Origin: a virus
IMG/VR virus record: IMGVR_UViG_3300034175_000015
Span: 1 to 39,226 of that record
Strand: one strand, 5' to 3'
Length of the DNA: 39,226 nucleotides
The position numbers and the translations under genes are program-made. Shown here piece after piece: positions 3,395 through 35,910 of the stretch; within the stretch, counting starts at the first letter, position 1, and each line of letters starts with the position of its first letter. Below the pieces are notes generated by a model. That model was not told where the DNA came from and did no database searches. It saw nothing but the letters and a program-made list of their open reading frames with translations.

Positions 3395-3412
3395 ACCCCG
3401 TTAATTTAACCC
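3395..3412 (+). promoter_or_regulatory. Candidate phage promoter, CCCGTTAnnTTAA family (copy 1)
   Basis: The sequence ACCCCGTTAATTTAACCC lies in the intergenic region 34 bases upstream of the SSB-like gene. The same core CCCGTTAnnTTAA occurs at 16310, 35938 and 36132, each time in non-coding DNA upstream of a gene block. This copy and the 16310 copy share CCCGTTAA(T/C)TTAACCC over 16 bases. The most economical reading is a promoter for the phage RNA polymerase. No typical sigma-70 pair fits here, since the only TATACT lies one base before the ATG. Promoter function is an inference. Confidence 0.5.
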
Positions 3413-4104: not shown

Positions 4105-4129
4105 TCCTAGGCATGAGTATAAACTGCCT
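4105..4129 (+). promoter_or_regulatory. Repeated leader hairpin element, copy 1 of 4
   Basis: After TCCT, the stem AGGCA (4109-4113) pairs with TGCCT (4125-4129) around the 11-base loop TGAGTATAAAC. Copies occur at 23306, 24151 and 30588, and each ends 17-28 bases before a start codon. Stem bases differ between copies but stay paired (AGGCA/TGCCT, GGGCA/TGCCC, AAGCA/TGCTT), which is what selection on RNA structure would produce. The spacing TAGG-N6-TATA also recalls the SP6 promoter, so a phage promoter is the alternative. Confidence 0.6.
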
Positions 4130-21746: not shown

Positions 21747-21765
21747 CGGGTATCTTATATGATAA
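21747..21765 (+). promoter_or_regulatory. Repeated motif CGGGTATCTTATATGATAA (copy 1)
   Basis: A 19-base sequence identical to 33284-33302. It starts 4 bases after the stop of the SLOG gene. The inner TATCTTATATGATA is an imperfect palindrome (TATC...GATA). It resembles the CCCGTTATCTTAATGAT copy at 36132, so it may be a variant phage promoter. Here a hairpin starts within it. Confidence 0.45.
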
Positions 21766-29196: not shown

Positions 29197-29538
29197 ATGA
29201 AACAAGATGTTAAAGAAAAGTGGATCTCTGATCTTCGTTCTGGTAATTACAAGCAGGCTCAACAATCACTTAGAAATAGAGAAGGTTATTGTTGCTTAGG
29301 TGTCTTGTGTGAATCCATGGGATACAAAGATTGGAAAGACGCTGGTGAGGATGACTACTCGTTAAGAGGCTTCTACCATAAAGGAGAAGATAATGTCTAT
29401 ATCACTGGTGATCTTAATGAACAATTGCTAGAAGAAGCGGGTCTTACAAGAAAAGATACGCAGCAATTGATTACTCTGAATGATACAGATAACTATACTT
29501 TTGAAGATATCGCGACATACGTAGAAGAAAAATTATGA
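29197..29538 (+). CDS. CCLGVLC-family small protein, member 1
   Basis: This 113-residue protein has the layout shared by seven proteins in the next 6.5 kb: an N-terminal helix KEKWISDLRSGNYKQ, the core YCCLGVLCES near residue 32, a variable middle, then LITLNDTDNYTFEDIATYVEEKL at the C-terminus. The CC-x(4)-C arrangement suggests a metal or redox site, but no enzyme motif is known to me. Related sequences are widespread in phages as proteins of unknown function. GAGGAATAG precedes ATG 29197, and the stop overlaps the next ATG. Confidence 0.75.
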   Translation: MKQDVKEKWISDLRSGNYKQAQQSLRNREGYCCLGVLCESMGYKDWKDAGEDDYSLRGFYHKGEDNVYITGDLNEQLLEEAGLTRKDTQQLITLNDTDNYTFEDIATYVEEKL

Positions 29539-29729
29539 ACGACAAAACACGCAGGTATATCTATGAGTTAATCGCATTGTGTTTAACAGGTTTCTTTGGA
29601 GCTTTTGCTCTACCAGAGCTTGTTAATGCACATAACAGTGTTGCACTATTAGCGGGAGGGATTCTTTTCATTACATATCTTTGTTGGTTTGCTTCTTTCA
29701 TTTACAGGGGATTAAAAAGCGATGTTTAA
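29535..29729 (+). CDS. Small two-span membrane protein
   Basis: ATGA couples this gene to member 1. The 64-residue product has a basic start (NDKTRRYIYE) and two hydrophobic segments, LIALCLTGFFGAFALPEL and VALLAGGILFITYLCWFASF, ending in a basic tail (YRGLKSDV). It overlaps the SPFH gene by 8 bases, so the two membrane proteins are probably made together and may interact (inference). Not recognised. Confidence 0.65.
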   Translation: MNDKTRRYIYELIALCLTGFFGAFALPELVNAHNSVALLAGGILFITYLCWFASFIYRGLKSDV

Positions 29730-30579
29730 GTTAATTGCGGGAGTTGCAACAGTTCTCATTCTTCTTATGTTGGGAATGTGTTCATTCGAGCGGGTTGGGC
29801 CAGGACACGTAGGTGTTCGTGTTAACAATTTCGGTTCACAATCAGGTGTTGATCCTTCACCCAAACAGGTTGGTTGGTATTTCACACCACCAGGTTCTAC
29901 TATCTACGAATATCCAGTATATACTAATACCTATCTATGGAATGAGGACGCTGCTTTCCGTTTCCAGGATAAGAATGGTATGCCACTCTCAGCTAACGTT
30001 GCTGTAGCTTACTCTGCAGATGCTCATAAAGCACCAGCATTGTATCAGAAGTATCGTATCGGTATGGATGAAATGTTACAGGGACCAGTCTTAAGGACAC
30101 TTCGTAACGCTGTTGTTGCTGAAGCAAACCTACTCTCTGTTGAGGAGATCTATGGTGTGCAGAAAGCTGCTCTTATTGAGCGTGCTCGTATTAGGTCTAA
30201 TAAATATCTAAATCCATTTGGCCTTAATATCGAGCAGCTAACTTGGGATTCAAATATCAATCTTCCTGAGGCTGTTCAACAGCAGATTGCAGCACGTGTA
30301 CAGAATGAGCAACAAGCAATTGCTGTTCAAGCGAAGGTTAAGATTGCAGAAGCAGGTGCTAATGAGCGTCGCGCCAATGCACAAGGTCTTGCTGATGCTG
30401 TTATCATTAAGGCAAAGGCAGATGCTGAAGCTACTCGTCTACAAGGTGAGTCACTGAAAGCTAATCCTGAATCTCTTGAGGCTCAGGCTATTGCTCGTTG
30501 GAATGGTAACGTTCCACAGATTGTTGGTACTGCTAGTCAGGTTCCATTTGTTGGACCTACTATTCTACAACGTCGTTAA
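29722..30579 (+). CDS. SPFH/prohibitin-like membrane protein
   Basis: This 285-residue protein has an N-terminal transmembrane segment (LIAGVATVLILLMLGM, about 4-19), then an SPFH-type domain (ERVGPGHVGVRVNNFG; PGSTIYEYPVYTNTYLW; LRTLRNAVVAEA; VEEIYG), and from about 190 a long Ala/Glu/Gln-rich helix (AVQAKVKIAEAGANERRANA) typical of the prohibitin/stomatin coiled coil. SPFH proteins form ring or cage assemblies on membranes and can control proteases such as FtsH. A phage copy could shape the host membrane or protect it from defence or superinfection (inference). Confidence 0.88.
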   Translation: MFKLIAGVATVLILLMLGMCSFERVGPGHVGVRVNNFGSQSGVDPSPKQVGWYFTPPGSTIYEYPVYTNTYLWNEDAAFRFQDKNGMPLSANVAVAYSADAHKAPALYQKYRIGMDEMLQGPVLRTLRNAVVAEANLLSVEEIYGVQKAALIERARIRSNKYLNPFGLNIEQLTWDSNINLPEAVQQQIAARVQNEQQAIAVQAKVKIAEAGANERRANAQGLADAVIIKAKADAEATRLQGESLKANPESLEAQAIARWNGNVPQIVGTASQVPFVGPTILQRR

Positions 30580-30587
30580 TGGCAACG

Positions 30588-30612
30588 TCCTAAGCATGAC
30601 ATAAAACTGCTT
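30588..30612 (+). promoter_or_regulatory. Repeated leader hairpin element, copy 4 of 4
   Basis: TCCT, then AAGCA (30592-30596) pairs with TGCTT (30608-30612) around loop TGACATAAAAC; T30591-A30613 adds a sixth pair. The second pair is A-T here, where the other copies have G-C or G-U, again changed on both sides. It ends 16 bases before ATG 30629. Confidence 0.6.
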
Positions 30613-30628
30613 ATTAATGGAGAGAATT

Positions 30629-31201
30629 ATGCCTTTTGATAGTTTTGATCGCCGTCCAGAACCTACTGTCAAAGAGAAGTGGATTGCTGCTCTAAGGTCT
30701 GGTGAACATAGACAAATCCAAAATGCATGGAATAATGGTCAAGGCGGTATGTGTGCTGCTGGTGTACTCATGCATGTTGTTGAGCCCTCTTGGAAATATG
30801 GCACAGCGATGAGTCCTGTGGACTTTCTTATTAGCACCCAACCTTTTGTCACTGAAGATCTTCTTCGTGCAGTGGTCTACTTCAACGATGGTCCCGGCTT
30901 ATCGTTTAAAGCTATTGCTGATAAGCTTGAGCGCAATGACTTTGAAATACCAGAGATCTTTCGTCGTAGTGCTCAAATGCTTTCATTCGATGAGCTTGCA
31001 GCCATTCCATATCCTAAAGCAATTAAACATGGTGAAGTCATTCCTATGGGTTATTATGGACAGAACTCTGGAAAGAGCTTTTTTGCACAGGAATATATGG
31101 CTAACTTTGTAGAGCCTAATCCTTGTGCAGAAATGGTACCAAAGGATTTCTATACCCTGCCTAAGTGGGATTGTAATCCTAAAGTCCTCGAGACTGTTTA
31201 A
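30629..31201 (+). CDS. Divergent CCLGVLC-family protein with extended C-terminus
   Basis: GGAGAG five bases before ATG 30629 decides this start; ATG 30617 overlaps that site. The 190-residue protein has the family N-terminus VKEKWIAALRSGEHRQ, but the core reads GGMCAAGVLMHVVEPSW, keeping only one of the three cysteines, followed by VVYFNDGPGLSFKAIADKLE, equivalent to the family C-terminus. About 80 additional residues (SFDELAAIPYPKAIKHGE...) follow. It is the only member with a leader-hairpin element in front and a terminator behind, so it is expressed separately. Confidence 0.7.
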   Translation: MPFDSFDRRPEPTVKEKWIAALRSGEHRQIQNAWNNGQGGMCAAGVLMHVVEPSWKYGTAMSPVDFLISTQPFVTEDLLRAVVYFNDGPGLSFKAIADKLERNDFEIPEIFRRSAQMLSFDELAAIPYPKAIKHGEVIPMGYYGQNSGKSFFAQEYMANFVEPNPCAEMVPKDFYTLPKWDCNPKVLETV

Positions 31202-31208
31202 CCTAAAC

Positions 31209-31242
31209 GCTCCCTGCTACTTGCGTGGTAGGGAGCACTTTT
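31209..31242 (+). terminator. Rho-independent terminator
   Basis: GCTCCCTGCTAC (31209-31220) pairs with GTGGTAGGGAGC (31225-31236) using two G-U pairs over a TTGC loop, followed by ACTTTT. It ends the single-gene unit at 30629. Confidence 0.85.
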
Positions 31243-31255
31243 ACAGGAGCATATT

Positions 31256-31522
31256 ATGATCGATCATGAATGGCTTAAGAGAAATGGCGAACGTCGTTTT
31301 TATGATGCGTTCGAACATTGGGATTTTAAAACAGCTGAACATATCATCGTCTTTGTCGATCATGATAAACTGCGTATAGTAGATACATGGGAAATCCTTG
31401 CTGATTGCTCTCGTAAAATATCTGCTAAAAAGTCTTGGTATATTGTTCCTAAATCATGTTATGCTAGAGAGGTCTTTCGAAATGCAAGAAGAATGGAAAT
31501 CCAAGTGGGTAGCCGCGCTTAG
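31256..31522 (+). CDS. Hypothetical protein
   Basis: AGGAGC precedes ATG 31256. The 88-residue product has HEWLKRNGERRFYDAFEHWDF, TAEHIIVFVDHDKLRIVDTW and a basic end. A helix-strand alternation is likely. It overlaps CCLGVLC member 2 by 41 bases, more than other pairs here, so either the tail is dispensable or the two are coupled. Not recognised. Confidence 0.55.
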   Translation: MIDHEWLKRNGERRFYDAFEHWDFKTAEHIIVFVDHDKLRIVDTWEILADCSRKISAKKSWYIVPKSCYAREVFRNARRMEIQVGSRA

Positions 31523-31841
31523 GTCTGGTAAGTATCGACAAGGTGAAATGACACTAAGAGATTATGACGATAAGTTTTGTTGTCTAGGTGTCTTGTGTGA
31601 CCTTGTAAAACCTGATGGATGGGTACGCGGAACTGGACGGTATGTTTTCGAATTCGAAAGTCAAGTGCAAACTACAAAATTGCCTTGGTCTGTAATAGAT
31701 ATTGTTGGTGACGTTAATCAAGGTGATCTAATTCGAATGAACGATAACGACAAGGCGTCATTTGAAAAGATTGCTGATTTCATTGAGGGGAGTGAATGGA
31801 GTGGACCAAGCGTTAAAAACGAAATGGGTAGCAGCACTTAG
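31482..31841 (+). CDS. CCLGVLC-family small protein, member 2
   Basis: The frame is open from 31398, but ATG 31482, with AGAGAGG upstream, gives a normal family N-terminus. The 119-residue protein has EWKSKWVAALRSGKYRQGE, FCCLGVLCDLVKPDGW, and RMNDNDKASFEKIADFIEG, then about 15 extra residues that overlap the next gene by 41 bases. Members 2, 3 and 4 are consecutive and presumably arose by tandem duplication. Confidence 0.75.
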   Translation: MQEEWKSKWVAALRSGKYRQGEMTLRDYDDKFCCLGVLCDLVKPDGWVRGTGRYVFEFESQVQTTKLPWSVIDIVGDVNQGDLIRMNDNDKASFEKIADFIEGSEWSGPSVKNEMGSST

Positions 31842-32112
31842 ATCAGGTGATTATAAACAGGGCACGGGCGTACTAAGACGCAATGACGACACATTCTGTT
31901 GTCTAGGTGTTCTATGTGATATTATTAATCCTAAGAAATGGCAAACAGAGCCTCTTCGATTTACCTTTGAAGAAAAGTCAACCGAGCCTCCTGACAGTGT
32001 AACTGATGCTGCACAACTTGATGCTGCAGACATAGGTGTCCTAATAGGTCTAAATGATGCTCGTGGATGTTCATTTAACAAGATTGCTGCTCATATTGAA
32101 AGGGAAATGTAA
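31801..32112 (+). CDS. CCLGVLC-family small protein, member 3 (GTG start)
   Basis: The likely start is GTG 31801, preceded by a GGAG-rich stretch; the upstream ATG 31762 belongs to the overlap with member 2. The 103-residue protein reads VDQALKTKWVAALRSGDYKQ, FCCLGVLCDIINPKKW and IGLNDARGCSFNKIAAHIE. Its stop overlaps the start of member 4 (TAATG). Confidence 0.74.
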   Translation: MDQALKTKWVAALRSGDYKQGTGVLRRNDDTFCCLGVLCDIINPKKWQTEPLRFTFEEKSTEPPDSVTDAAQLDAADIGVLIGLNDARGCSFNKIAAHIEREM

Positions 32113-32432
32113 TGGACGCTGCTTTAAAAGAGAAATGGGTCGCTGCCTTACGCTCTAGTAAATATAAACAAGGGCGCTCTAGGCTACGTACAAAAGACGA
32201 TAAATTTTGTTGTCTTGGTGTTCTCTGTGATGTCATTGATTCTGAAAAATGGGAATTGTCAGAGGGTGGTGATTGTTATATCTATACAGCAGACAGACAT
32301 CAGAGTGCTACTTTTATTCCCAATACAATAACGGATGTGAGTGGTTCAGACCAATCGTTACTAATCGGTATGAACGATACAAATGAAATGTCATTCAATA
32401 GAATTGCTGATTATATAGAGAGGAAGCTATAA
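32112..32432 (+). CDS. CCLGVLC-family small protein, member 4
   Basis: This 106-residue protein is coupled by TAATG to member 3 and to the next gene. It has LKEKWVAALRSSKYKQGR, FCCLGVLCDVIDSEKW and IGMNDTNEMSFNRIADYIERKL. The middle segment (YTADRHQSATFIPNTITDV) is unlike that of its neighbours; the variable middle between two conserved ends is the pattern across the family. Confidence 0.75.
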   Translation: MDAALKEKWVAALRSSKYKQGRSRLRTKDDKFCCLGVLCDVIDSEKWELSEGGDCYIYTADRHQSATFIPNTITDVSGSDQSLLIGMNDTNEMSFNRIADYIERKL

Positions 32433-32737
32433 TGCTTAGAGATTGGTATAATCGTCTCATTGGTAATGTTCCTTCTGTTTATGATTTCAAGAAGTGGCTT
32501 GACACCAAAGACCCAAATGAAGAATACGAGTATATCAATTACGGGCATATCGCTACTTGTGCTTTTGGTCAATATCTTATTGAGACAAAGAAAACAAAAG
32601 CACCTGGTGTAGGTGTGAGTGCATGGGCATTACATTGGCGTAGCCCAGATCGTCGACCAATACCAGCAGAATTAGTAAAGCCATTAAATCAAGCAGGTAC
32701 ATTTGGTGAACTTAAAAGGATACTTGAACATGTTTGA
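32432..32737 (+). CDS. CAFGQYL-family small protein, copy 1
   Basis: This 101-residue protein shares its plan with the next gene: VYDFKKWLDTKDPNEEYEY, TCAFGQYLIE, RRPIPAELVKPLN and TFGELKRILEHV. The order W-containing helix, C-x-x-G-x-L core, IP, N, (S/T)F and a final helix with LE also matches the CCLGVLC proteins, so both groups may be one distant superfamily (inference). It is coupled to its neighbours by TAATG and an 8-base overlap. Function unknown. Confidence 0.72.
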   Translation: MLRDWYNRLIGNVPSVYDFKKWLDTKDPNEEYEYINYGHIATCAFGQYLIETKKTKAPGVGVSAWALHWRSPDRRPIPAELVKPLNQAGTFGELKRILEHV

Positions 32738-33029
32738 AGCAATTTTACATTTCTTTCGTAAGCCCAAAAAGCCAACCGTATATGATTTCAAGAAGTGGCT
32801 GAATACGAAGGACTCTAATGAGGTATATCGCTATTGGAGCAGTCAATGTGCCTTTGGTCAGTATCTTCGAGATAGAAACTTTGTCTCAAATCCAATAGTT
32901 AATGAAAAGACTTGGCAAAAGAGTCCTTTTTATGATGCTCCTGAATATCCAATTCCAGAGAGACTTCATCCACACCTAAACTCAAGGACGTTTGGTGAGC
33001 TTAAGAGAAAGCTTGAAAATGTCCGATGA
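32730..33029 (+). CDS. CAFGQYL-family small protein, copy 2
   Basis: ATG 32730 has AAGGA upstream inside the end of copy 1. The 99-residue product reads TVYDFKKWLNTKDSNEVYRY, QCAFGQYLRD, YPIPERLHPHLNS and TFGELKRKLENV, clearly a tandem duplicate of copy 1 with diverged middle. The DNA encoding the conserved ends is also similar (TATGATTTCAAGAAGTGGCT in both). Confidence 0.72.
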   Translation: MFEAILHFFRKPKKPTVYDFKKWLNTKDSNEVYRYWSSQCAFGQYLRDRNFVSNPIVNEKTWQKSPFYDAPEYPIPERLHPHLNSRTFGELKRKLENVR

Positions 33030-33213
33030 GCAGTTGATCGAAAAGTTTCGCAGACGTCGTCAACAGATGATTGAAGCTAAAGATGAGCTGGAAAAGCTTG
33101 GGTATCACTTTGAAACAGAAAATGGAGCAAGTTTCTATTGGGCAGGTTTTAAGATATTCAAGTATGAGAAGATTACTACAAAGCTTGAACAGACCATAAA
33201 AGTATATCGTTGA
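33019..33213 (+). CDS. Small charged hypothetical protein
   Basis: ATG 33019 overlaps copy 2 by 11 bases. The 64-residue protein is a charged helix (DEQLIEKFRRRRQQMIEAKD) followed by strand-like HFETENGASFYWAGFKIFKY. No cysteines. The first of the duplicated terminators follows at 33219. Not recognised. Confidence 0.57.
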   Translation: MSDEQLIEKFRRRRQQMIEAKDELEKLGYHFETENGASFYWAGFKIFKYEKITTKLEQTIKVYR

Positions 33214-33218
33214 TATAT

Positions 33219-33259
33219 CCCTCTTCATTGTCCTTATTTAGGATAGTGGAGAGGGTTTT
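33219..33259 (+). terminator. Rho-independent terminator, duplicated type (copy 1)
   Basis: CCCTCTTCATTGTCC (33219-33233) pairs with GGATAGTGGAGAGGG (33241-33255) through several G-U pairs, followed by TTTTC. The hairpin at 35866 is nearly identical, and their differences keep pairing (TCCT...AGGA here, TCCC...GGGA there). Confidence 0.88.
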
Positions 33260-33283
33260 CTATACTTTTATTTTTCGCTCATT

Positions 33284-33302
33284 CGGGTATCTTATATGAT
33301 AA
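33284..33302 (+). promoter_or_regulatory. Repeated motif CGGGTATCTTATATGATAA (copy 2)
   Basis: Identical over 19 bases to 21747-21765. It lies just before AGGAGG and 13 bases before ATG 33316, and follows a terminator, so a start signal for the next unit is expected here. A leader this short argues against a sigma-70 promoter at this exact place and fits a phage-RNAP start near the motif's 3' end, or an operator. Confidence 0.5.
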
Positions 33303-33315
33303 ACAGGAGGACGTA

Positions 33316-33765
33316 ATGGACATTCAGAAACTATATGAGATTTTAAATGAGACAACAGCACAGTATCGTAAAGGTCCTGAGCGTGTTGACACTAAGACTG
33401 CAGGTGTTAATGTTACTGAGTTCTACATGATGCCACCCACCAGTGATATCGCAGATGATATCGTAAAGGTTGATCTTTCTTTCATCACTATTGGTGTTGA
33501 TAAAAAGAAAGCAGAAGCTCGTAAGGCTGAGCTTATTGGGATACTAAATCACTATCCCGAGCCTAAAGAACTCGCTGATGGCCCTTCTTACATCACTGTG
33601 GGTGCACGTATTGGCGATCAAGGTGCTGCTTTTCAATTGTTTGCTCTTGGGGAAGTGTTGGGACTTTGGAAGGTTATTACACCAGAGTTCTTTGGTATTA
33701 CAGGCAGTGCTGCCCGAGAGGCTGCTGGTAATGGTTACATTATGATATCAGGATATAAATCATGA
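33316..33765 (+). CDS. Conserved phage protein of unknown function
   Basis: AGGAGG precedes ATG 33316. The 149-residue protein has helical charged ends (VDKKKAEARKAELIGILN) and a conserved-looking C-terminal half: YITVGARIGDQGAAFQLFA, LGEVLGLWKVITPEFFG and GNGYIMISGY. I have the impression of a family seen in other phages, but I cannot name a function. The stop overlaps the next ATG (ATGA), coupling it to CCLGVLC members 5 and 6. Confidence 0.65.
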   Translation: MDIQKLYEILNETTAQYRKGPERVDTKTAGVNVTEFYMMPPTSDIADDIVKVDLSFITIGVDKKKAEARKAELIGILNHYPEPKELADGPSYITVGARIGDQGAAFQLFALGEVLGLWKVITPEFFGITGSAAREAAGNGYIMISGYKS

Positions 33766-34097
33766 ACCACAACATTAAAACGAAATGGGTAGCTGCTCTC
33801 AGGAGTGGCGATTATAAACAAACTAAGGGTGCTCTTCGTCGACCACCTGGAGCAGATTATCCTGAAGGGTACTGTTGCTTAGGTGTATTATGCGAAGTTG
33901 TTAAACCTAATGCACCTTGGTTAAAAGACGGTGATAGATATACGCTTCTCGGTGCAGCAGGTGTTGCACCACAATCGATTGTGCAACAACTTGGTTTAAC
34001 ATTCGATGATCAGGGTGCTTACAATCTGCTTCCACATATGAATGACGGTGGTAGAACATTTGAAGAAATCGCTGATTTCATTGAGGAGCGTTTATAA
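33762..34097 (+). CDS. CCLGVLC-family small protein, member 5
   Basis: This 111-residue protein reads IKTKWVAALRSGDYKQTKG, YCCLGVLCEVVKPNAPW, then a variable part (VAPQSIVQQLGLTFDDQ) and PHMNDGGRTFEEIADFIEERL. It is coupled by ATGA upstream and TAATG downstream. The central part with L-(P/A)-x-S/I and the Q-x-x-L-x-(L/F) stretch is shared with members 6 and 7, forming a subgroup distinct from members 2-4. Confidence 0.76.
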   Translation: MNHNIKTKWVAALRSGDYKQTKGALRRPPGADYPEGYCCLGVLCEVVKPNAPWLKDGDRYTLLGAAGVAPQSIVQQLGLTFDDQGAYNLLPHMNDGGRTFEEIADFIEERL

Positions 34098-34417
34098 TGG
34101 ATGCCAATATCAAGAAGAAATGGCTGGCTGCTCTTAGGAGTAGAGAATTTAAGCAGGTCATGGGAGCACTTAAACGCGATGAAGGACATTGCTGTTTAGG
34201 TGTTCTATGTGAGCTTCTGGAACCTGATGCTCTGTGGGAAAAGAGATCAACAGGTAGTTACACCATTCGTGGTGAAGGTGCGCTTATGCCTTACTCTCTT
34301 CAAGAGAGGCTTAATCTTTCTGATAGTGAGAAAGAACCTTTTGCTCAACTTCCAAAAATGAACGATCGAGGTAAAACCTTTGAAGAGATCGCTGATTTCA
34401 TTGAGGTGCGATTGTGA
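34097..34417 (+). CDS. CCLGVLC-family small protein, member 6
   Basis: This 106-residue protein has IKKKWLAALRSREFKQVMG, HCCLGVLCELLEPDALW, LMPYSLQERLNLSDSEK and PKMNDRGKTFEEIADFIEVRL. It is a tandem neighbour of member 5 and most like it and member 7. Its stop overlaps the GTG of the next gene (GTGA). Confidence 0.76.
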   Translation: MDANIKKKWLAALRSREFKQVMGALKRDEGHCCLGVLCELLEPDALWEKRSTGSYTIRGEGALMPYSLQERLNLSDSEKEPFAQLPKMNDRGKTFEEIADFIEVRL

Positions 34418-34557
34418 GGCTTATGTGTCGTCTCTTTGGTCATAAATGGAGGCTTGCTCCCGGCTTCTATACGATTGGCCAAAGAGTCACATACTATTGT
34501 GCTAGGAAGGATTGCTTCTATGCTAAGAACGACACATTTCATATAGAAAGGTTCTGA
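34414..34557 (+). CDS. Small zinc-finger-like protein (DUF1660-like)
   Basis: GTG 34414 overlaps the previous stop; ATG 34423 is the alternative start. The 47-residue product MRLMCRLFGHKWRL..., with YCARKDC later, follows the C-x(4)-H ... C-x(4)-C plan of small phage zinc proteins such as DUF1660. It would bind one zinc ion through C5, H10, C29 and C34. The role is unknown. Confidence 0.6.
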   Translation: MRLMCRLFGHKWRLAPGFYTIGQRVTYYCARKDCFYAKNDTFHIERF

Positions 34558-34558
34558 T

Positions 34559-34723
34559 ATGCCTTATGAAGAGAGTCACCTTGGTGATGGTGTATATGCT
34601 TCTTATGATGGTTATCATATACGACTTGCTGTTAACCATCATGAAAACAAGGTTGTTGCATTAGAGCCTTCAGTAGTATATGCTCTCATTGCTTATGCTA
34701 AACGCCTAGCGGTGATAAAGTGA
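34559..34723 (+). CDS. Small conserved phage protein
   Basis: This 54-residue product reads LGDGVYASYDGYHIRLAVN, then VVALEPSVVYALIAYAKRL. The pattern 'LGDGVY-S-DGY-I-L ... VALEP-V--AL--Y' is familiar from many phages as a tiny protein of unknown function. AAAGGT lies upstream of ATG 34559, and the last codons overlap the GTG start of the next gene. Confidence 0.62.
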   Translation: MPYEESHLGDGVYASYDGYHIRLAVNHHENKVVALEPSVVYALIAYAKRLAVIK

Positions 34724-34956
34724 GAGGTGAAGAGAACGGTAGCTGTAAGAAGTGTCAAGCGTCACCTGCTAACTGGTATGATCATAGGACTCGTCATTGG
34801 TATTGTCTTGACTGCTCAATAGCAATTGGTCAGAGTGTTGTTAAGTTACGTGAGTGGCTGACTTACCACTATCATATACATAAGCATTCTCAATTTGAGA
34901 CACGCTCTATGATGAATACGAGAGTTTGTTCAAAGAAGCGTTGTAATCGTATTTAG
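34720..34956 (+). CDS. Zinc-ribbon small protein, tandem copy A
   Basis: GTG 34720 overlaps the previous stop (GTGA). The 78-residue protein has SCKKCQASPANWYDHRTRHW, YCLDCSIAIGQSVVKLREW and FETRSMM. Four cysteines in two CxxC knuckles form a likely zinc ribbon. The neighbour at 34966 has the same design, so these are tandem duplicates. A few further cysteines (VCSKKRC) end this copy. Function unknown. Confidence 0.65.
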   Translation: MRGEENGSCKKCQASPANWYDHRTRHWYCLDCSIAIGQSVVKLREWLTYHYHIHKHSQFETRSMMNTRVCSKKRCNRI

Positions 34957-34965
34957 GAGATAGAT

Positions 34966-35235
34966 ATGCCTTACCCGCAATATGACGGTCCTAACAAACC
35001 TGATAAAGGTAAAGAAGGTGGTAGCTGTAATAGGAGTAAGTGTCAAGATTCACCTGCTGACTACTATAACCATGGTTCTCACTCTTGGTATTGTCATGGG
35101 TGCTCAATAGCGATTGGCGAGGACGTTGTAAACGCGCGTAATTGGCCAATTGATTTCCCTCGATTGTTTCCAAATAGAACATTTCATCCAATGTTTGAAA
35201 CACGCGAAATGATTGATAATCATGACGCCTCTTGA
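34966..35235 (+). CDS. Zinc-ribbon small protein, tandem copy B
   Basis: AGGAGAT precedes ATG 34966. The 89-residue protein has a proline-rich start (PYPQYDGPNKPDKGK), then SCNRSKCQDSPADYYNHGSH, WYCHGCSIAIGEDVVNARNW and FETREMID. The first knuckle is CxxxC here instead of CxxC. Close similarity to copy A (SPA-YxH, WYC--CSIAIG--VV--R-W, FETR-M) supports a tandem duplication. Confidence 0.66.
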   Translation: MPYPQYDGPNKPDKGKEGGSCNRSKCQDSPADYYNHGSHSWYCHGCSIAIGEDVVNARNWPIDFPRLFPNRTFHPMFETREMIDNHDAS

Positions 35236-35314
35236 AATAGAAGGCTTTATTTGGCTTGGTATGGCAATCTTCACTTACTTTCTTGTGTTGATTGTAATAT
35301 TCATTAGGGGATAG
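35222..35314 (+). CDS. Very small single-span membrane peptide
   Basis: ATG 35222 overlaps the zinc protein by 14 bases. The 30-residue product MTPLEIEGFIWLGMA..., with FTYFLVLIVIFIRG at its end, is almost entirely a membrane span. Its last codons contain the AGGGGAT ribosome binding site for CCLGVLC member 7. It is small and has a weak site of its own, so confidence is limited. Confidence 0.45.
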   Translation: MTPLEIEGFIWLGMAIFTYFLVLIVIFIRG

Positions 35315-35316
35315 AT

Positions 35317-35664
35317 ATGGACCAAGAGATTAAAGATAAATGGTTAAAGGCACTCCGTGGTGGTCGTTATAAGCAGGTTCGAGGTTTTCTTAAACGCACT
35401 ACAACCTCTAAAGGAATTAAATCGACAGGTTATTGTTGCCTTGGTGTATTATGCAGAGTTGTTGAACCAAATACTAAATGGGAGTCAATAGGAGGCGGCC
35501 TCTACGAATTCCACGGTAAAGATACTCACCTACCCAAGAGTGTAAGAGACAAGCTTAAACTAACACCTTTTGAAGAGAGTCAGTATTGGCTGCTACCTGT
35601 GCTGAATGATACGCATCGTAAGTCATTCAAAGAACTTGCTGACTTTATCGAAAAGAAGCTTTAG
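35317..35664 (+). CDS. CCLGVLC-family small protein, member 7
   Basis: TAGGGGAT precedes ATG 35317. The 115-residue protein reads IKDKWLKALRGGRYKQVRG, YCCLGVLCRVVEPNTKW, LPKSVRDKLKLTPFEESQ and PVLNDTHRKSFKELADFIEKKL. It is separated from member 6 by five small genes, so at least one duplication was followed by insertion or transposition of neighbours. It belongs to the members 5-7 subgroup. Confidence 0.76.
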   Translation: MDQEIKDKWLKALRGGRYKQVRGFLKRTTTSKGIKSTGYCCLGVLCRVVEPNTKWESIGGGLYEFHGKDTHLPKSVRDKLKLTPFEESQYWLLPVLNDTHRKSFKELADFIEKKL

Positions 35665-35859: not shown

Positions 35860-35865
35860 TTCAAA

Positions 35866-35910
35866 CCCTCTTCATTGTCCCTATTTGGGATGGTGGAGAG
35901 GGTTTATTTT
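35866..35910 (+). terminator. Rho-independent terminator, duplicated type (copy 2)
   Basis: CCCTCTTCATTGTCCC pairs with GGGATGGTGGAGAGGG (ending at 35902), followed by TTTATTTT. It is a near copy of the hairpin at 33219, and like that copy is followed by CTTTATTTTTT-like DNA and a promoter-like motif. Confidence 0.88.

Follow-up and report, generated by a model that had tools for sequence, protein, structure and literature searches.

Background

Small phage proteins of PHROG 18067 (profile phrog_18067), for which the PHROGs database lists no function, and of the Pfam family DUF6197 (PF19698) are the closest described counterparts of the gene array that we report here from a 39,226-base viral record, IMG/VR IMGVR_UViG_3300034175_000015, the whole of which we call the window. 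Clustered copies are known on both sides. Synechococcus phage B23 carries four members of the first family (gp84, gp85, gp86 and gp88) near its tRNA genes, and DUF6197 genes stand in tandem in Achromobacter phage Motura (four, L132:794-2584), Pseudomonas phage pf16 (two, L133:1166-1839) and Synechococcus phage BUCT-ZZ01 (three, L134:834-1821). Gordonia A15 phages likewise hold duplicated DUF6197 copies, some with two tandem domains (PMC10586128).

By alignment and profile, seven intact genes of the window whose products share the motif CCLGVLC form one family, phrog_18067, together with a divergent, extended eighth, 30629, that reads CAAGVL. The family is already catalogued and has tandem copies in other phages, and the array is a high-copy case of a known, uncharacterised kind; a literature search found no paper with the CCLGVLC string. 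We propose, with a probability of only about one in three, that the eight are small cytosolic phage accessory factors that bind host proteins, to inhibit or redirect several of them during infection.

Results and discussion

Eight members of one family and a separate pair

All ten open reading frames (ORFs) that a first-pass annotation had taken for paralogues exist, each with a start codon (Table 1; genes and proteins are named by their first position). An alignment of the seven CCLGVLC proteins has 22 invariant columns, the identity to member 33762 being 41-53%, and 30629 aligns with the seven and matches the hidden Markov model (HMM) of the family. The phrog_18067 profile matches all eight (E 7e-7 to 1e-22) and 117 of 117 family members (best E 1.5e-28); PHROG 18067 is the same family as the eight, with no difference between them. 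Searches of NCBIfam and PADLOC gave no credible match.

The remaining two proteins, 32432 and 32730, carry the motif CAFGQYL and are homologous to each other (49% identity). Their membership in the CCLGVLC family fails by sequence: scores against the family HMM lie inside the range given by shuffled copies of the same proteins and phrog_18067 does not match them, so that the ten supposed paralogues become eight plus two. Nor did HMM-HMM comparison bear out the suggestion that the two groups are related, as hhalign gave no support and, with another column choice, returned a short local C-terminal match that was equalled by 2 of 150 permuted controls. The CAFGQYL model, built from two sequences only and of low confidence (predicted local distance difference test, pLDDT, 62.5), has an order of helices and strands like that of the CCLGVLC family and found no fold match. 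No relatives of the pair turned up when viral contigs were scanned by pattern and by relatives, or in 299 Pseudomonadota genomes, and tblastn against phage records gave chance-level hits only; one weak local match (13 bits) among 50 phage records, to an ORF with a zinc-finger-like start, was judged to be chance.

Distribution and copy number

At least 510 family relatives were confirmed in viral contigs and a corresponding scan of 84,980 genomes of bacteria and archaea gave 7 loci, pattern scans of either kind being undercounts. Within 299 sampled Pseudomonadota genomes the family occurs in the reference genome, which was chosen for having it, and in 0 of the 298 others. It is a phage-centred family, common in phages and mostly single-copy: in 50 viral contigs, which were the best scan hits and not a random sample, and leaving out two partial matches below 20 bits, one copy was counted in 28, two in 11 and three in 7, with 6, 7, 7 and 8 copies in the others.

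The window encodes an RNA polymerase, a DNA polymerase, a primase-helicase, a ribonucleotide reductase, a ligase and a terminase. The terminase shares 60% identity with its counterparts in two Naomviridae roseophages, DSS3_VP1 and DSS3_PM1, the closest named phages by this protein. Because the genomes of these relatives measure 70-75 kb, the record probably represents roughly half of a genome. Lineage relatives were gathered with a terminase alignment, a scan with a single terminase protein having given one relative only. Among the 36 obtained, some of whose records are fragments, 34 lack the family, one has one copy and one has two, which bears out for this lineage the earlier remark that the copy number is large. 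Eight copies are extreme for this Naomviridae-like lineage and stand at the upper end of what the family shows, yet are not unique. The absence from 34 of 36 relatives is also the reason for which we regard the genes as accessory. DSS3_VP1 and DSS3_PM1 both have the same 662- and 136-amino-acid genes upstream of the interval as the window does, but their whole records hold no CCLGVLC gene, and B23, one of the Kyanoviridae, has fewer copies than the window, in a row interrupted by one unrelated gene (gp87).

A distant relation to DUF6197

The window CCLGVLC proteins do not reach the Pfam gathering cut-off of DUF6197, which is 24.6 bits (best 19.0 bits, E 0.0018), and among 117 relatives three match at E<0.1, the best again at 0.0018. 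When a DUF6197 profile built from 13 proteins, all recognised by Pfam, was run against the 117 family members and 1170 shuffled copies, 39 of the 40 best hits were real members. In hhalign the C-x-x-G and N-D motifs of the two families fall in register at P 0.0017; another column choice gives P 0.012, with 2 of 150 column-permuted controls scoring equally high. A fold search lists a 118-amino-acid Motura protein, weakly. Both families are of similar size and share the order of W region, C-x-x-G-[AV]-[LI] helix, N-D turn and C-terminal helix, and Cys, Gly and Asn are invariant in the DUF6197 set as in ours, with Asp nearly so. DUF6197, however, has WxxG and HxxVL where the family has KWxxALRSGxYxQ and [ST]FxxIA, and one invariant Cys only. 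An actinobacterial DUF6197 query found no match in phage records.

To us the family looks like a distant relative of DUF6197, and because the window proteins miss the Pfam cut-off the relation would be one of superfamily rather than membership. The link appears absent from the libraries searched. A different small protein of a relative phage (L130:4837-5322), with a CAAGFCI motif, may likewise belong to a wide C-x-x-G group.

Predicted structure and conserved residues

An AlphaFold model of member 33762, made with 117 sequences, is a single domain with pLDDT 97.3 and a predicted template modelling score of 0.90. It comprises a helix (3-15), short strands, a helix that starts at the Cys motif (39-47), a beta hairpin (54-62) and three further helices (71-77, 81-95 and 100-110). 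Foldseek against the PDB gave a best E of 3.1, that is, no recognised match, and a profile search of the PDB by sequence produced nothing credible; the absence of a PDB match does not prove a new fold. A likeness to the kinase C-lobe (VIA-align, best Z 3.4) was set aside as common background.

Across 117 non-redundant members W9, L13, C38, G41, L43, N94, D95 and F100 are invariant, although the CCLGVL and KxKW stretches doubled as search seeds and their conservation is inflated. Polar positions are also well kept: R14 in 108, S15 in 111, Y18 in 109, Q20 in 113, N94-D95 in all 117 and E108 in 101. The cysteines are present in 117 (C38), 114 (C39) and 102 (C44) members. It had been suggested that this triplet binds metal, which is unlikely because C44 is lost in 15 of the 117 and no His is conserved; moreover, 30629 keeps the first Cys only, without C39 and C44. 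One relative, in phage record G506, reads CACALGVL.

The polar residues raise the question of whether the conserved part is itself the working part, with C38, Q20, R14, Y18 and N94-D95 forming a ligand or catalytic pocket and the middle of the protein only tuning the substrate or partner. The retention of R14, S15, Y18, Q20, C38, N94-D95 and E108 in 101-117 of 117 members is what such a pocket would predict, as is the invariance of Cys, Gly and Asn, and near-invariance of Asp, in so distant a set as DUF6197. Yet Q20, R14 and Y18 are lost in DUF6197, neither a His nor a metal set is conserved, no enzyme fold was matched in the PDB, and N94-D95-x-G-x-[ST]-F may be read as a turn and helix cap, whose role would be structural. 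We consider this explanation rather unlikely.

The variable middle and a possible panel of binders

The first-pass annotation described constant ends and a variable middle, a description with which the pattern of substitution agrees. In a recent clade of nine close relatives, drawn from five contigs, residues 1-48 have an omega of 0.44 (0.20-0.83), residues 49-89 one of 0.98 (0.62-1.64) and residues 90-111 one of 0.78 (0.35-1.74), with bootstrap intervals that overlap and pairs that are not independent. The middle seems to evolve fastest, positive selection (omega >1) being unproven, and it is plausible that a fixed core bears a face that changes fast.

If the eight proteins are accessory factors that bind host proteins, the N-terminal helix, the C-x-x-G helix and the C-terminal helix of the ND...[ST]F...I region, which are conserved and present in the model, would pack as a fixed core. 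The middle (about 49-89, the beta hairpin and the next helices) would then be the changeable face, through which each copy may bind a partner of its own, probably a host protein. The net charge of the window copies ranges from -9.6 to +8.5, a difference expected if their partners differ. Copies would arise by local tandem duplication in accessory units equipped with terminators and putative promoters of their own, and the pay-off would be that several host proteins are inhibited or redirected in infection, for host takeover or counter-defence. A more ambitious version, in which a widespread phage-specific fold with no recognised solved relative serves as one inhibitor scaffold for many targets, its tandem copies with diversified middles making up a panel of binders against host proteins, seems to us doubtful.

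Several observations weigh against factors of this kind. Neither a partner, a phenotype nor an anti-defence neighbour was found: the defence library PADLOC was silent, the neighbouring genes show no anti-defence signature among the families listed, and the genes adjoining family members carry mostly function-less annotations and some replication annotations (primase, helicase, exonuclease), with no recurrent partner. The omega of the middle, with its interval of 0.62-1.64, is not shown to lie above 1, and relaxed constraint explains it equally well. The one to three copies seen in most contigs are not called for by a many-targets model; the polar residues that are conserved (R14, S15, Y18, Q20, N94, D95 and E108) could form a ligand site or active site; and tandem duplication is also seen among small genes of other kinds within this stretch.

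The small size of the proteins, the position of some family genes beside primase, helicase and exonuclease, and the existence of one basic member, of isoelectric point (pI) 9.6, might instead suggest proteins that bind DNA or RNA and regulate the expression of phage or host genes. The family is, however, mostly acidic (median pI 4.9, median charge -5.6) and has no credible match to a nucleic-acid-binding family, and the model ends with the [ST]FxxIA helix, after which no second helix of a helix-turn-helix follows. Such a role is quite improbable. The idea of a DNA mimic is weakened by the strongly basic charge of one window copy.

Origin of the copies and their putative transcription units

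A tree of 118 sequences, which has few columns and poorly supported deep forks, cannot derive the window copies from fewer than two origins. Members 31482, 31801 and 32112 join (trio A), as do 33762, 34097 and 35317 (trio B; support in Table 1), while 29197 and 30629 stand apart, the latter grouping, with a long-branch caveat, with a CAAGCL protein (L046:13074). This topology resolves the array into two local tandem trios and two singletons rather than a single ten-gene expansion; of the expansion first proposed, the local duplications stand and the single event does not, since the tree needs two origins or more.

Trio B is enclosed by two near-identical strong terminators, 33219 and 35863. 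The intergenic motif TCCTAGGCATGAGTATAAACTGC, repeated at 4105, 23306, 24151 and 30588 where 0 copies are expected by chance, is likely to be a phage promoter or regulatory class, and a separate intergenic motif, ACCCGTTAnnTTAA, at 3396, 16309, 35937 and 36131, the last two between the array and the terminase genes, could be a promoter class used by the phage RNA polymerase. Its terminators and putative promoter motifs make the array look like several accessory transcription units that are separate from packaging.

An arrangement of this kind might instead be left by a duplication-prone accessory stretch, in which small genes are copied and drift under weak selection, or are kept for dosage, without diversification of targets. 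Within the same 6 kb, duplication has affected three small-gene families (that of the CCLGVLC trios, that of the CAFGQYL pair and the zinc-ribbon-like 34720/34966); in relatives this interval holds a variable set of small ORFs, and omega in the middle is about 1. On the other hand, all eight ORFs are intact even though the seven are only 41-53% identical to 33762, which argues for long purifying selection; N-terminal omega is below 1, and amplification in other phages suggests a recurrent benefit. We judge this account unlikely, and continue to favour, tentatively, accessory factors that bind host proteins.

Table 1. Features of the array and its surroundings in the window
Feature	Positions	Strand	Remarks
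CCLGVLC member, singleton lineage	29197..29538	+	phrog_18067 E=2.8e-16; unplaced singleton in tree
Putative regulatory motif TCCTAAGCATGACATAAAACTGC, before 30629	30588..30610	+	close relatives at 4105, 23306, 24151
Divergent member, CAAGVL, C-terminal extension	30629..31201	+	family HMM E=7e-17
CCLGVLC member, trio A	31482..31841	+	phrog_18067, alignment, tree clade 100/96
CCLGVLC member, trio A, GTG start	31801..32112	+	phrog_18067, alignment, tree
CCLGVLC member, trio A	32112..32432	+	phrog_18067, alignment, tree
CAFGQYL protein 1	32432..32737	+	homologous to 32730 (49% identical); no CCLGVLC family match
CAFGQYL protein 2	32730..33029	+	homologous to 32432; no CCLGVLC family match
Strong intrinsic terminator	33219..33255	+	near-identical to copy at 35863 (84% over 57 nucleotides)
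Putative promoter motif CGGGTATCTTATATGATAA, 19 nucleotides, intergenic, upstream of trio B	33284..33302	+	exact copy at 21747; 0 expected by chance
CCLGVLC member, trio B, AlphaFold-modelled (pLDDT 97.3)	33762..34097	+	tree clade 100/87
CCLGVLC member, trio B	34097..34417	+	alignment, tree
CCLGVLC member, trio B, basic (pI 9.6)	35317..35664	+	alignment, tree
Strong terminator between array and terminase genes	35863..35905	+	

Other genes of the window

Inside the array, 34720-34956 and 34966-35235 encode tandem small proteins that are 43% identical, have CxxC-type zinc-ribbon-like patterns and are unconnected to the CCLGVLC family. Beside the first family gene, the product of 29722-30579 matches phrog_200 (lipoprotein; SPFH/HflC-like), and in Alteromonas phage AD45-P4, too, an HflC/HflK-type gene lies some 3 kb away from the CCLGVLC gene. 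Farther away, the phage gene 17524-18075 matches cysteine dioxygenase (phrog_4786, E 2.6e-31) and may be an auxiliary metabolic gene, of an unusual kind.

Conclusions

Environmental phages commonly carry the family, and its diverged arrays of 6-8 copies are natural panels for finding binding partners. The link to DUF6197, if true, would tie two families without an assigned function into one superfamily, so that a function solved for either would aid the annotation of the other as well.

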